Positions 11,631 through 42,618 of a stretch of 64,000 bases of DNA are shown piece by piece. Location of the stretch: contig JAFGRU010000036.1 of assembly GCA_016934985.1 (NCBI GenBank), positions 1 to 64,000 on the forward strand, read 5' to 3'. The stretch comes from Deltaproteobacteria bacterium (lineage in GTDB: Bacteria; Desulfobacterota; Desulfuromonadia; Desulfuromonadales; JAAYDE01). The position numbers and the translations under genes were made by a program. Below the pieces are notes generated by a model. The model was not told where the DNA came from and did no database searches. It saw nothing but the letters and a program-made list of their open reading frames with translations. How positions within the stretch are numbered: the stretch's first letter is position 1; each line of letters begins with the position of its first letter.

Positions 11631-11702
11631 ACAAGTGCTAAGTATTAAGTGTTAGGTGTTTAGTAAAACAATTTAAAACTTAACACCTTAAACTTAAAAC
11701 TG
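11631..11702. repeat. Inverted repeat of the AAGTGTTAAGT family between dnaE and accA
   Basis: The left arm (11631-11663) contains TAAGTATTAAGTGTTAGG. The right arm (11673-11702), read on the other strand, contains TTAAGTTTAAGGTGTTAAG. Together they make an imperfect hairpin with a loop of about 9 bases, beginning right after the dnaE stop. It belongs to the same family as copies at 15183, 20050, 20501 and 42581. Confidence 0.6.
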
Positions 11703-11703
11703 C

Positions 11704-14700
11704 TTACTCGAAAGTGGTCACATTATAACCGAAAAGCTTCTCCGTGTCTTTCATGATCGCGTCACAGGCGGCAACATTGAGGCTTTTCGGAAGTCTGATT
11801 ACCGCCTCGCTGCGGTTGGGAATAACCACGTGGATCATGGCCTCACAGTCACCCGGATTGTCGCGAACGATGCTGTGCAGGCCGTCCAACAGCTGCTCGT
11901 CCACCGTCGGCGCTGACAACCGGAAGTGAACCCGCCTGGTTTGGCGCAGCTGATAGTCGGCCAGGGCCGCAACCTCGGTGGCAATCAATTTGCGGTTCTC
12001 CTCCCCGACATCGAGGTTGCCGCGCACCAGCAACGGATCTTCGCCGTGCAGCACATCAAACCCCGCCTGGTAAACCTCCGGGAAAATCACCACCTCGATA
12101 CAACCACTGAGATCTTCAAGGGAAACAAAAGCCATGCGGTCCCCTTTTTTGGTGGTCAACTCCTTGATAGATGCCACAATGCCGCAGACCGCAACCGCTT
12201 CGCGGTCTTTGCGCTCGGCCAGCCCCACCGCATCGCAGGAAGCAAAACGTTTGACGGTGGCTTCGAAACCGGCCATGGGGTGGCCGGTGATGTAAAAACC
12301 CAGGGCCTCTTTCTCGAATCCAAGGCGAATCTTTTCGGGCCACTCTTCCAGCTCAGGCAACTGCTGATAACCATGGCCGTTGCTGGAAATAATTTCGGCC
12401 GTTTCAAACAGTGACTCCTGCCCTTGCTCGCGCTCACGCTGGATCTTATTGCCCACCTCCATAGCATCCTCCAACCCCGCCAGAAGTTGCGACCGGTGGC
12501 CGGGCAGCGAATCGAAGGCACCGCATTTGATCAGGGCTTCGATGACCTTTTTGTTGACCTTGCGGGAATCGACCCGCTCGCAGAAATCATAGAGTGACTC
12601 AAAAGGTTTTTCTTTTCGGACCTCAATAATGGAATCGAGGGCCGCGAGCCCGACCCCTTTGACCGCCCCCAAACCGAAACGGATGGCATTTTCATGAACC
12701 GTAAAACTGCTGCTCGACTGGTTGATAGCAGGCGGCAGAATTTCGATCCCCATGCTTCTCAGTTCGCTGATATTCTTGATGACCTTGTCGGTGAATTCCA
12801 TGTCCTCGGTCAAGAGGGCTGCCATGAATTCAACCGGATAATGTGCTTTGAGGTAGGCAGTCTGGTAGGCAATCAAGGCATAAGCTGCTGAATGGGATTT
12901 GTTGAAGCCGTATTCGGCGAACTTCTCCATGAGGTTGAAAACTGCTTCCGCCTTTTTTTGATCAAGCTTGTTCTCCGCTGCCCCTTTGAGAAACTTTTCC
13001 CGTTCCTGGGCCATGACGTCGAGCTTTTTCTTGCCCATGGCCCGGCGCAGGATATCGGCCCCGCCCAGGCTGTAATTAGCCAGGATCTGGGAAACGAGCA
13101 TGACCTGCTCCTGGTAGAGGATGACCCCGTAGGTATCCTTGAGGACCGACTCCAACTGCTTAAATTCGTAGGTGATTTTTTTGCGACCGTGCTTACGCTG
13201 GATGAAATCCTCAACCATTCCCGAACCGAGAGGGCCCGGACGATAGAGGGCGACCAGGGCAATGATATCCTCGAAGCAGTTGGGCTTCAGTTTGACCAGA
13301 AGTTCTTTCATGCCCGAGGATTCAAGCTGAAAAACCCCCGTGGTTTCGCCCGCGGAGAGCAGCTGGAAAGTGGCCTCGTCATCGTCGGGGATGAGGCGCA
13401 GATCGAAATCGGGCTTTCCGCCCTCGCGGATCAGGCGAATGGCGTTGTTGATAACGGTAAGGGTTTTGAGGCCGAGAAAGTCGAATTTGACCAGACCGAT
13501 GGTTTCGACATTGCCCATGGAGTACTGGGTGACCTGGGCGCCTGACTTGGGATCGGTATAAAGAGGCAGATAGTTTTCCAGGGCCATGGGTGTCACCACC
13601 ACCCCCGCAGCGTGGGTGGAGGCATGACGAGTCAACCCTTCCAAAGCCAAAGCCACATCGAAAAGCTTCTTCACGCGCGCATCGCCGGCGATCATCTCCT
13701 TCAAGCGCGGCTCCTGCTTTAGGGCTTTCTCAAGCTGGATATTGAGGATACTGGGAACCAGCTTGGCAATGCGGTCGACCTCACCATAGGGCATGTTCAA
13801 AGCGCGGCCGACATCCCGGATCACCCCTCGCGCCGCCATGGTTCCGAAGGTGATGATCTGGGCGACATTCGCCTTGCCGTATTTCTCCTGAACATAACGG
13901 ATGACCTCCTCACGGCCATGTATGCAGAAGTCGACATCGATGTCAGGCATGCTTACCCGTTCGGGGTTGAGAAAACGCTCGAAAAGCAGTTGATAACGAA
14001 TCGGGTCGATGTCGGTAATGCGCAAAGAAAAGGCGACCAGACTGCCGGCCGCGCTGCCGCGGCCGGGCCCCACGGGGATATCGTGGTCCTTGGCCCAGTT
14101 GATAAAATCGGCCACGATAAGAAAGTAGCCGGGAAAACCCATCTGGGTGATGCAGACGATCTCCTCTTCGAGCCGTTCACGATATTCGTCATGTTCCTTT
14201 TCAGAGAAATCCCGTACCTTGCGAATTTCCTCAATGCGCTCATCCAGCCCCTGTCTGGCCTGCTCGGCAAGGATCTCATCGAGGGTCTTATCCTCGGGCT
14301 TTTCATACTGGGGGAAATGGTAGGTGCCAAGGGGGATTTCAAGGTTGCATTTGTCAGCGATACGCAGACTGTTGTCAACGGCCTCGGGAATATCGGCAAA
14401 CAGCTCGCGCATCTCAGCCGGCGTCTTGAAATAGAACTCGTCATTCTGGAAACGCATGCGCTCCTGGTCTTCCATGGTTTTGCCGGTCTGGATGCAGAGG
14501 AGAACCTCGTGAGCGTAAGCGTCCTTGCGATCAAGGTAGTGACAATCATTGGTAGCCACCAGAGGCAGGTCCATTTCCCGGGAGATTTTGATCAACTCCT
14601 TATTGACGATATCCTGCTCGGCCAGGAAATTGCGCTGTATTTCCAGGTAAAAGCGCTCATTATCAAATACTTCAGATATTTCGGCGGCTCGCTGACGAGC

Positions 14701-15174
14701 CAGGTCCGGCTGGTTGTTGAGAATCAGATCAGGGATTTCGCCCCCGAGGCAGGCAGTCAAAGCGATGAGCCCCTCGTTTTTTTCCCGCAAAAGCTCCCAG
14801 TCCACCCGGGGCCGATAGTAGAAGCCTTCCCGGTAAGCTGAAGAAACCAGGGAACAGAGGTTCTTATAGCCGGTGAGATCCTGGCACAAGAGCAGAAGAT
14901 GGAAGGCGGCTTCCTTTGATTTGCGCGCCTTGGACTTGTCAAAACGGGATTCGGGCGCGACATAGACTTCGCAGCCGAGAATCGGCTTGATACCGGCTTT
15001 GCGGACTTTCAGGTAGAACTCGATAGCCCCGAACATGTTGCCGTGGTCGGTGATCGCCAAAGCGGGCATCTCGTTTTCGAGAGCCTTTTCAATCAGCTTA
15101 TTGACCTTGATGGCGCCATCGAGAAGGCTGTATTCGGTATGCAGGTGGAGATGGACAAAACTCTGATTGCTCAT
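11704..15174 (-). CDS. dnaE: DNA polymerase III alpha subunit
   Basis: 1156 residues, the normal DnaE1 length. The replicative polymerase subunit has an N-terminal PHP domain (HLHLHTEYSLLDG, ITDHGNMFGA), then the C-family polymerase core. The core includes GPGRGSAAGSLVAF and the catalytic PDIDVDF aspartates, and is followed by the fingers, tandem HhH, an OB-fold (about residues 985-1070) and a C-terminal tau-binding region. The PHP metal ligands look mostly intact (H-x-H and D-H), which in some lineages supports proofreading. ATG 15174 lacks a strong ribosome-binding site. Upstream are two dispersed repeats, and accA follows. Confidence 0.97.
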   Translation of the reverse strand: MSNQSFVHLHLHTEYSLLDGAIKVNKLIEKALENEMPALAITDHGNMFGAIEFYLKVRKAGIKPILGCEVYVAPESRFDKSKARKSKEAAFHLLLLCQDLTGYKNLCSLVSSAYREGFYYRPRVDWELLREKNEGLIALTACLGGEIPDLILNNQPDLARQRAAEISEVFDNERFYLEIQRNFLAEQDIVNKELIKISREMDLPLVATNDCHYLDRKDAYAHEVLLCIQTGKTMEDQERMRFQNDEFYFKTPAEMRELFADIPEAVDNSLRIADKCNLEIPLGTYHFPQYEKPEDKTLDEILAEQARQGLDERIEEIRKVRDFSEKEHDEYRERLEEEIVCITQMGFPGYFLIVADFINWAKDHDIPVGPGRGSAAGSLVAFSLRITDIDPIRYQLLFERFLNPERVSMPDIDVDFCIHGREEVIRYVQEKYGKANVAQIITFGTMAARGVIRDVGRALNMPYGEVDRIAKLVPSILNIQLEKALKQEPRLKEMIAGDARVKKLFDVALALEGLTRHASTHAAGVVVTPMALENYLPLYTDPKSGAQVTQYSMGNVETIGLVKFDFLGLKTLTVINNAIRLIREGGKPDFDLRLIPDDDEATFQLLSAGETTGVFQLESSGMKELLVKLKPNCFEDIIALVALYRPGPLGSGMVEDFIQRKHGRKKITYEFKQLESVLKDTYGVILYQEQVMLVSQILANYSLGGADILRRAMGKKKLDVMAQEREKFLKGAAENKLDQKKAEAVFNLMEKFAEYGFNKSHSAAYALIAYQTAYLKAHYPVEFMAALLTEDMEFTDKVIKNISELRSMGIEILPPAINQSSSSFTVHENAIRFGLGAVKGVGLAALDSIIEVRKEKPFESLYDFCERVDSRKVNKKVIEALIKCGAFDSLPGHRSQLLAGLEDAMEVGNKIQREREQGQESLFETAEIISSNGHGYQQLPELEEWPEKIRLGFEKEALGFYITGHPMAGFEATVKRFASCDAVGLAERKDREAVAVCGIVASIKELTTKKGDRMAFVSLEDLSGCIEVVIFPEVYQAGFDVLHGEDPLLVRGNLDVGEENRKLIATEVAALADYQLRQTRRVHFRLSAPTVDEQLLDGLHSIVRDNPGDCEAMIHVVIPNRSEAVIRLPKSLNVAACDAIMKDTEKLFGYNVTTFE

Positions 15175-15182
15175 GATCCGGC

Positions 15183-15210
15183 GTCAAGTGTTAAGTGTTA
15201 AGTGGTTAAG
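15183..15210. repeat. AAGTGTTAAGT-family repeat, single arm
   Basis: Three tandem variants of AAGTGTTA directly upstream of dnaE; same family as 11631-11702, but no clear complementary arm follows. Confidence 0.5.
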
Positions 15211-15994: not shown

Positions 15995-16006
15995 AACGAA
16001 AAACCG

Positions 16007-16057
16007 TCATTGGTCATTGGTTATTGGTCAATTGCCAATTATCATGGTCGTTGGTCA
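16007..16057. repeat. Heptamer repeat (CATTGGT)n between maf and the MazG-like gene
   Basis: Five or so degenerate copies of TCATTGG / TTATTGG, with one inverted copy (CCAATTATC), directly before maf. Confidence 0.5.
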
Positions 16058-18479: not shown

Positions 18480-20042
18480 TTACTCCCACTCAATGGTAGC
18501 CGGAGGTTTGCCGGAGATATCGTAGACAACCCGGTTCACCCCTCGGACTTCATTAATAATGCGGTTGCTGATACGCGACATGATGGCGTAGGGAAGCGGA
18601 TACCACTCGGCCGTCATAAAATCTTTGGTTTCCACGGCACGCAGGGCGATGACGTACTCATAGGTGCGCCCGTCACCCATAACGCCAACGCTTTTGACCG
18701 GCAGGAACACGGCGAATGCCTGGCTGATCTTGTCGTAATGGCCGGTACGGTGCAGTTCGTCGATATAGATGGCATCGGCATAGCGCAGAGTATCGGCAAA
18801 GTCTTTGTTGATCTCTCCCAGGATGCGGACCCCCAGGCCCGGCCCGGGGAAAGGATGGCGATAGACCAGCTGATGCGGCAGACCCAGCTCCTCGCCGATG
18901 GAGCGCACCTCGTCCTTGAACAGTTCGCGCAAGGGCTCCACCAGTTGCAGCTTCATGAACTCGGGCAGGCCGCCGACATTGTGGTGGCTTTTGATGCTGT
19001 GCGCCTTGCCGGTTTTGGCCCCGGCGGATTCTATAACATCGGGATAGATGGTCCCCTGCCCCAGCCAGCGGACATTGCCAAGCCTCTTCGCTTCTTCCTC
19101 GAATATTTCAATGAAAAGGCCGCCGATAATTTTGCGTTTCTGCTCAGGATCGGCCACCCCTTTGAGAGCGGAAAGGAACCTCTCCTCGGCATCGACCCGA
19201 ATTACCCGGACACCGAGATTCTCGGCAAAGGTGGCCATGACCTGGTCCCCCTCCCCCAGACGCAGAAGACCGTTATCGACGAAAACGCAGGTCAACTGAT
19301 CGCCGATCGCCAGATGCAACAGGGCCGCCGCCACGGAGGAATCAACTCCGCCGGAAAGGCCGAGCACCACCTGCCCGCCTTCGACCTGCTCGCGGATGCG
19401 GGCGACGCCGTCCTGAATGATGTTGCCCGGCGTCCACTGTCCTGAACAGCGGCAGATGTTGCGGACAAAATTTTCGATAAGGAGGTCACCCCGCAGGGTG
19501 TGATTGACCTCGGGATGGAACTGGACACCGTACTGGCGCCCTTGAATGTTCTGGATGGCGCAGACAGGAGCGTTTTCCGAGTTGGCGATGACCTCAAACT
19601 GATGCGGAACCTTCTCGACGTGATCGCCGTGGCTCATCCAGACCGAGTTTTTCCCCTCGACAAAAAAACCTTCGAATAATGGGCCCGGCCGCCCCTGGGA
19701 CATGACCTCGGCATGGCCGTATTCGCGTTTTCCGGCCGGCACCACGGCACCGCCAAAGTGTCGACACATGAGCTGCATGCCGTAACAGATCCCCAGGACC
19801 GGAATGCCCAGTTCGAAGAGCTCCTCCTCGACAGCCGGGGCACCCTGATCATAGACCGATTTCGGTCCGCCGGAAAGAACGATCCCCCTGGGGGCAAAAG
19901 CCCGAATCGCCGCCAGATCCATGTCAAACGGCTGGATCTCGCAATAGACATGGGTTTCCCGGATGCGCCGGGCAATAAGCTGGCTGTACTGGGAGCCAAA
20001 GTCGAGAATGAGAATTTTTTCGCTGTGAATGTCTTTGGTCAT
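18480..20042 (-). CDS. guaA: GMP synthase (glutamine-hydrolysing)
   Basis: 520 residues. It converts XMP, ATP and glutamine to GMP. The class I amidotransferase domain (1-195) shows [10 protein letters not shown] with the nucleophile cysteine and GVQFHPEV with His/Glu. The ATP-pyrophosphatase domain has the P-loop [15 protein letters not shown]. The C-terminal dimerisation domain ends [17 protein letters not shown] 20042 is preferred over an in-frame TTG seven codons earlier, because that extension lies inside a repeat arm. There is no Shine-Dalgarno sequence: the leader consists of the repeat, so the native leader may have been replaced by the insertion that separates guaA from guaB. Confidence 0.95.
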
Positions 20043-20049
20043 AAAATTA

Positions 20050-20529
20050 GTTTCAAGTGTCAAGTTTTAAGTGTTAAGTGTTGGGCAGTGACTGGCAGGA
20101 GCTAAAAATCAGCTGTTTCTGTTGGCAATACTTTTTGAAAGCTGATGGAGCATTTTTGATAAGGCCATAAGCTCTTCAACCATCTCTTTCTGAATTTCCG
20201 GACTGACAACTCCAATTTTGCTCGCAATATAAACCTGAGTTCTGAGTTCAGCGGCGGAACCTTTTGCAATATGCAGAAAACGGACAAATTCTTTTTTTGA
20301 TTCGCGCTGATCCCCTTTGGCAATGTTGGAGGCGATAGAAACTGCCGACCGGCACATCTGGTCTTTCAAACTGAAATCGCGGCAGTCTTTCAGAACTTCA
20401 TAGGTTCGAACCGCCAACCGGGAAGCACGTTTCCAAACATCCAGATTTTCAAATAACGAATAGCCCATTCAAATCAATTTTAAAAGGGTTTTAGGTTTTG
20501 CTTAAAACTTAAAACTTGCAACTTAAAAC
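20050..20529. mobile_element. IVS-like inverted-repeat cassette inserted between guaB and guaA
   Basis: Two 29-base arms (20050-20078 and 20501-20529) are inverted repeats: 25 of 29 positions pair and one more is a G-U wobble in RNA. They share CAAGTTTTAAGT. They enclose the S23-type gene at 20109-20468. In the guaB-guaA transcript the arms would form a long stem with the gene in the loop, the same plan as intervening sequences in bacterial 23S rRNA. The arms belong to the AAGTGTTAAGT repeat family found elsewhere in the window. Mobility is inferred. Confidence 0.55.
20109..20468 (-). CDS. Four-helix-bundle protein, S23 / 23S rRNA intervening-sequence family
   Basis: 119 residues. The start GYSLFENLDVWKRASRLA, then FSLKDQMCRSAVSIASNIAKG, then FVRFLHIAKGSAAELRTQV is the clear signature of the four-helix-bundle (S23, PF05635-type) family. 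Members are encoded inside intervening sequences of 23S rRNA genes in Leptospira, Coxiella and others, and also stand alone. They form pentameric bundles related to the Avd protein of diversity-generating retroelements. The biochemical role is not established. Here the gene lies between guaB and guaA on their strand, enclosed by inverted repeats, and interrupts an otherwise common guaBA pair. Confidence 0.88.
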   Translation of the reverse strand: MGYSLFENLDVWKRASRLAVRTYEVLKDCRDFSLKDQMCRSAVSIASNIAKGDQRESKKEFVRFLHIAKGSAAELRTQVYIASKIGVVSPEIQKEMVEELMALSKMLHQLSKSIANRNS

Positions 20530-20629
20530 CGAGGTCGAAGCCTGATACAGTAAAGCCTCAAAGGGCCGCCAATTCACCCCGTCATTCATTTATACGGAAA
20601 GTACTACAGACTCAAACCCGGCTTCGCGG

Positions 20630-22138
<1,509 letters not shown>

Positions 22139-42576: not shown

Positions 42577-42580
42577 AGCA

Positions 42581-42618
42581 GTTTCAAGTTATAGGTGTTA
42601 AGTTTTAGGTGTTTAAGC
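42581..42618. repeat. AAGTGTTAAGT-family repeat after typA
   Basis: Reads TTCAAGTTATAGGTGTTAAG then TTTTAGGTGTTTAAG; direct degenerate copies of the repeat found at 11631, 15183, 20050 and 20501. No complementary arm is adjacent. Confidence 0.5.

Follow-up and report, generated by a model that had tools for sequence, protein, structure and literature searches.

The S23 protein family is known chiefly from ribosomal RNA inserts. Intervening sequences (IVSs) with an S23 open reading frame, from Coxiella, Leptospira and Brucella and from Azospirillum lipoferum, carry the gene in sense in the loop of a hairpin closed by terminal inverted repeats of ~30 bp, and in both respects they resemble the element described here, which lies between guaB and guaA (the gua element). 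A further parallel is the REPtron (REP + RAYT), in which a single gene likewise sits between inverted copies of a short dispersed repeat that often form hairpins. In the 5' arm of the Coxiella IVS two or three tandem heptamers GACAGAT, varying with the strain, lie at the RNase III site, and the origin and function of rRNA IVSs and of the S23 protein have been called unclear (PMC4990558).

Dispersed heptads have been described as TAACTGA in Beggiatoaceae, GGGAATC in Xanthomonas and GGGGA(T/C)T in Nostoc, and as paired sites in Geobacter metallireducens (PMC4679880, PMC4692102, PMC2700814). Like the S23 arms considered below, these are intergenic tandem 7-base units, at times in inverted pairs; the accessible portions of these accounts make no mention of S23, and the link is drawn here (PMC4679880, PMC4692102, PMC2700814). 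Heptads are reported there as the commonest bacterial repeats of 5–11 nt, with an origin by slippage proposed (PMC4679880, PMC4692102), and slippage is the only hypothesis on offer for the heptanucleotide excess (PMC4692102). A literature search, mostly without subscription papers, found no paper joining S23 or IVSs to dispersed heptads, which does not in itself prove novelty. We argue that the gua element is probably a mobile hairpin element, with S23 in the loop and inverted 7-base arrays as the stem, and that the rRNA IVS is one case of it.

The S23 gene and its place between guaB and guaA

The window analysed is a stretch of 64,000 nucleotides from a Deltaproteobacteria bacterium. Two essential purine-synthesis genes, guaB (IMP dehydrogenase, the upstream member of the host operon; 20630–22102) and guaA (GMP synthase, the downstream gene; 18480–20042), were located by the open reading frame list and junction comparison and flank an S23 gene at 20109–20468. 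Along the minus strand, guaB (22102–20630) is followed by a 100 bp spacer from the guaB stop to the 5' arm that holds neither S23 nor array (20530–20629), an array (20529–20501), S23 (20468–20109), a second array (20083–20049) and guaA from 20042. Since all three genes lie on the minus strand, S23 is co-directional with the gua genes.

The S23 frame is intact, with an ATG start and 119 aa, and matches PF05635 over essentially the whole profile (positions 1–105 of 106) and well above the curated cut-off (E=1.2e-32; 112.7 bits against 33.8), as well as TIGR02436 (four helix bundle; E=9e-32). Profile searches gave no other Pfam match within the element, and a single S23 gene above the cut-off in the genome of the window; the further S23 genes with the same arms that the initial annotation had proposed to look for did not appear. 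No promoter-like site was found between guaB and guaA, the only one on the minus strand being upstream of guaB, and, because S23 is also in sense orientation, it would be read from the gua transcript. The element thus splits guaB from guaA, as had been proposed, and guaA is preceded by CACTTGAAACTAATTTTATG, in which there is no Shine-Dalgarno sequence; AGGAG precedes guaA in two genomes of the same family (G001 and G003).

The hairpin arms are heptad arrays

The S23 gene was already described in the initial annotation as lying between 29-base inverted repeats, and the repeat search bears this out: 20050–20078 and 20501–20529, 422 nt apart, pair at 25 of 29 positions (86% complementary). The arms are, however, no arbitrary inverted repeats, a point missed there; both are tandem arrays of the 7-base unit ACTTAAA/ACTTAAC. 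Written as minus-strand sequence, the arm on the 5' side of S23 is GTTTTAAGTTGCAAGTTTTAAGTTTTAAG (20501–20529; repeat and period searches) and the 3' arm is the inverted array CAACACTTAACACTTAAAACTTGACACTTGAAACT (20049–20083; the same searches and junction comparison), which ends 6 nt upstream of the guaA ATG. No strong periodicity other than 7 is present in the window, which has five period-7 arrays and none of period 5, 6, 8, 9 or 10.

Cofolding of the two arms gives −29.4 kcal/mol, and the 90-nt flanks of S23 pair beyond shuffled sequences (z −3.6). Folding of the whole 516-nt region was dropped as evidence of structure, being ordinary (z −1.25, with 13 of 100 shuffles as good), an outcome attributable to the AT-richness of the arms, and arm-to-arm pairing was taken instead. 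An Rfam scan around the element gave no match.

Related heptads occur elsewhere in the window and its genome. With up to 3 mismatches allowed, the pattern AACTTAAAACTTAAAACTT matches the genome 52 times and its reversal 3 times. In some genomes (e.g. G010, G029, G048) the reversed pattern matches real heptad families and so is no clean control, hence the comparison of S23-bearing with S23-free genomes (see below). A hairpin of the ACTTAAA-family unit at 11632–11701, found by pattern and period search directly after the dnaE stop codon, contains no S23 and is probably a related miniature element. At the other end of dnaE (11704–15174, minus strand) an array of the same family (15177–15208) ends 2 nt before the start codon, with no S23, and a lone array at 42580–42618, again of the ACTTAAA family, has no facing arm. 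A second heptad family, with the unit TTGGTCA (AATGACC when read from the opposite strand), follows a small gene at 16005–16034, and units resembling it are present in G003 and G016. A dispersed repeat, CCGCTCCGGCTGCGGTACAAGGGG, is present at least 17 times on contigs of G000 (e.g. L318, L322, L327), and several copies are directly followed by a heptad array; the far side is common too, TTTGCTTATACGGCCCCT.

Comparison with 23S rRNA intervening sequences

An S23 gene of Azospirillum lipoferum 4B (L310, one of 12 plasmid loci) provides a bridge to the rRNA IVSs. It lies inside a 23S rRNA gene, flanked by two heptad arms that pair over more than 30 bp. In five further Azospirillum records the same rRNA site is occupied by a short hairpin. 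Heptads are therefore found in the 5' arm of the Coxiella IVS (PMC4990558), in both Azospirillum arms and in both arms of the gua element, and on the strength of the Azospirillum arms and the Coxiella heptamers we conclude that rRNA IVSs and the gua element have a common architecture. The IVS-like layout claimed in the initial annotation is supported by the Azospirillum arms. Like an IVS that bears an open reading frame, the gua element has a long stem of terminal inverted repeats and, in its loop, an S23 frame that reads in the direction of the host transcript. RNase III excises rRNA IVSs without ligation, and a comparable cleavage of the gua stem would be a prediction. It differs in its location, a guaB–guaA spacer in a protein-coding operon and not a 23S rRNA gene, so that it resembles an IVS in layout yet falls outside the definition by rRNA location. 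It differs also in the state of its gene, which is intact in the window and under selection in relatives, whereas the Coxiella IVS frame is decaying (PMC4990558).

The resemblance to REPtrons extends to layout and stops at the components. PF05635 is the sole gene in the gua element, where no Y1 REP-associated transposase gene is found; S23, a small four-helix bundle with no Y1/HUH transposase, is unlike RAYT, and the repeat is unlike REP in being a tandem array of 7-base units that differ in sequence from one locus to the next.

Period-7 arrays beside S23 genes across phyla

The S23 loci came from two sources, 98 genomes belonging to the same order and GTDB representatives spanning many phyla; the comparison took in ~170 relatives, with 158 S23 genes in the main survey and 12 plasmid-borne S23 genes taken later. 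With array thresholds that were fixed after the first loci had been seen, a period-7 array lies within 250 bp of 79 of the 158 genes, the corresponding counts for periods 5, 6, 8 and 9 being 0, 1, 12 and 3; at this threshold about half of the genes have no clear array, which counts against reading these loci as mobile elements. The plasmid-borne genes, mostly cyanobacterial, served as a later check with a slightly looser threshold and the same control periods, and had an array upstream in 10 of 12 cases and downstream in 9 of 12, with other periods near zero. Array density near S23 is ~10-fold and ~16-fold that further out in the two sets of loci. Arrays occupy 40 of 101 gaps beside S23; elsewhere in the same loci they occupy 34 of 239 intergenic gaps (P=6e-7), the gaps being delimited by a simple, crude caller of open reading frames. 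The 14% of ordinary gaps that have arrays show heptads to be dispersed through the genomes concerned.

Within a locus the arms are as a rule inverted copies of a single unit, and the unit varies from locus to locus: arms match at 5.4 of 7 positions within loci and at 3.6 in shuffled loci (maximum 4.3). In a few loci there are instead copies of the unit in direct orientation, or a complete hairpin on each side of S23. Pairing between the flanks reaches z<−3 in 58 of 157 S23 loci and in 4 of 149 control segments. When the flanking arrays are read outward from the gene, C exceeds G in 90 cases and G exceeds C in 19.

These surveys bear on one alternative, that an orphan gene gained by horizontal transfer has AT-rich, low-complexity flanks by chance, which the ordinary fold energy of the whole gua region would fit. 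It is hardly credible given that period 7 alone stands out, in many phyla, whatever the base composition, and again in the independent plasmid set, and at the level of the family it is refuted by the survey of 158 genes, the plasmid set and the comparison of gaps within the same loci. Another possibility raised in the initial annotation, that the arms merely replicate a genome-wide repeat and have no link to S23, is half right: they are repeat copies, as the 52 genomic matches indicate, but these surveys show the link to S23.

Dispersed heptads are likewise associated with S23 at the level of whole genomes. For five units, in counts that include the arrays adjoining S23 itself, the median number of matches is 15.5 in S23-bearing genomes and 2.5 in S23-free ones, and at least 10 matches occur in 32 of 48 and 7 of 50 respectively (P=1e-7, uncorrected for genome relatedness). 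Both those seven S23-free genomes and six S23-bearing genomes with zero matches to the five units searched count against the mobile-element reading.

Movement between gene junctions

The guaB–guaA junction can be read in 85 cases within the same order, 80 of them without S23 and five with it (G000, G008, G048, G075, G091), which means that the empty junctions expected of an inserted element do exist. The S23-free gaps range from −7 to 277 bp, with 24, 60 and 61 bp in the same family. The S23 tree requires at least three independent acquisitions for the five carriers, which differ in S23 subfamily and in heptad unit. Heptad arrays or hairpins without S23 occupy the junction in G035, G040, G068 and G072, and, as judged by eye, in G055.

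Comparable arrangements are found at other junctions, where gene names at unannotated loci are our reading of the translations: cysD–S23–cysN in Stutzerimonas (L104, with L114 representing the same locus), S23 downstream of manC in two loci (L100 and L103), cas6–S23–cas4 in two cyanobacteria with different units, and also nrdB–S23–nrdA and rfbA–S23–rfbC. By the same crude caller of open reading frames, S23 runs in the direction of both adjacent genes in 78 cases and opposite to both in 11. The movement of an IVS-type element into protein-coding transcripts, as initially suggested, is upheld by the five occupied junctions and their separate acquisitions, with the amendment that residence between protein genes is common and not exceptional.

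In three Pseudoalteromonas genomes the 3' end of a metallo-hydrolase gene is occupied by one S23 gene with AACCACT arrays. The same site in Pseudoalteromonas sp. XI10 (L339/L128) carries another S23 gene, reversed in orientation and with an ACTCGCA array, and this gene sits within two to three leftover AACCACT units in 7-base register; one element has evidently landed in, or recombined with, the array of the other. In G099, G100 and G101, AACCACT arrays occur in several gaps within ~10 kb, as if locally spread.

Among related S23 genes at non-orthologous loci, unit similarity is 4.53, against 3.86 in GC-matched shuffles (sd 0.11), and because units are alike outside orthologous loci the arms travel with the S23 gene. 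The relation fades fast, S23 proteins 60–80% identical often carrying unrelated units, which makes strict sequence recognition unlikely. Strict specificity of S23 for its heptad was considered and dropped, as a first Mantel test was driven by near-identical loci and the relation was weaker once orthologous loci had been removed. Taken as sequence comparisons, these data give good support to movement of the S23 and heptad element between sites. Two results count against a mobile element: comparison did not pin down exact element ends or target duplications, and no nuclease, transposase or reverse transcriptase is present in the element.

It could be held, alternatively, that heptads are products of polymerase slippage that arise independently, and that S23 shares tolerant gaps with them or inserts into existing hairpins while playing no role in the arrays. 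The prevalence of heptads among bacterial repeats of 5–11 nt, for which slippage has been proposed (PMC4679880, PMC4692102), would favour this, as would array lengths that differ by whole units among related species (L105, L107, L108), heptads in some S23-free genomes and one S23 element inside an older array. Slippage leaves unexplained, however, why both arms are inverted copies of one unit, why related S23 genes have common units at different loci, why arrays are in 4-fold excess over other gaps of the same loci and why the same arms occur in a 23S rRNA IVS, and we regard it as rather unlikely.

Selection on the S23 protein and its relatives

In most S23 pairs divergent enough to judge, dN is well below dS, which argues that S23 is maintained as a protein. 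The pair from the guaB–guaA junctions of G091 and G075, a lineage other than that of the window, has dN 0.07 and dS 1.19. Purifying selection at this junction, together with the sense orientation, the recurrence at guaB–guaA and the loss of the Shine-Dalgarno sequence in the window, would suit an element kept as a guaBA regulator, whose stem would set the guaA/guaB ratio through mRNA cleavage or blocked guaA translation and on whose stem S23 would act. We find such a role improbable as the explanation of the element, given that 80 of 85 relatives lack it, that the carriers differ in S23 subfamily and unit, and that the same layout recurs at cys, manC, rfb, nrd and cas junctions.

Two solved S23 relatives, 2gsc and 2rld, have five chains each, and the Xanthomonas one is described as a homopentamer (PMC4990558). 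Avd (4DWL), noted as homologous to PF05635 (2GSC) and related in fold to S23, is indispensable to the retrohoming of diversity-generating retroelements (PMC10053308). Unlike Avd, S23 is alone in its element: the neighbours at the locus are guaB and guaA, with no adjoining reverse transcriptase, template or variable repeats or other retroelement parts.

A possible mechanism

If the mobile hairpin reading is correct, the element would have inserted in sense between guaB and guaA, and the 23S rRNA IVS would be the same kind of element in a different host transcript. The arms would move with the gene, their sequence drifting while the 7-base period and the mutual pairing are kept, and S23-free hairpins and single arrays would be the offspring, remains or landing pads of the element. 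The S23 ring may bind the heptad stem, either as RNA or as extruded DNA, a model that we favour because the solved relatives are five-chained and PF05635 is related to Avd. S23 might then help a host enzyme to copy or insert the hairpin, somewhat as Avd aids a reverse transcriptase, and RNase III may cut the stem and so separate the guaB and guaA mRNAs.

More broadly, and tentatively, since we hold this wider proposal to fall somewhat short of an even chance, S23 with a 7-base stem may constitute a widespread, unnamed class of mobile element in which the period and the pairing of the arms are conserved and their sequence is not, for which the IVS is one niche, and which would be a main source of the dispersed heptad families of bacteria.

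Implications

What appears to be new here is the link between S23 and heptads, and the wider class of S23 and heptad elements would be a novel case. The S23 family carries heptad arms in many phyla, and this ties the rRNA inserts to the unexplained dispersed heptads. If the link is true, the origin of IVSs and S23 and the excess of heptads become one question, namely whether the S23 ring binds or moves heptad hairpins, and unnoticed double-stranded stems, with possible RNase III cleavage, would be predicted in essential operons (gua, cys, nrd, cas).
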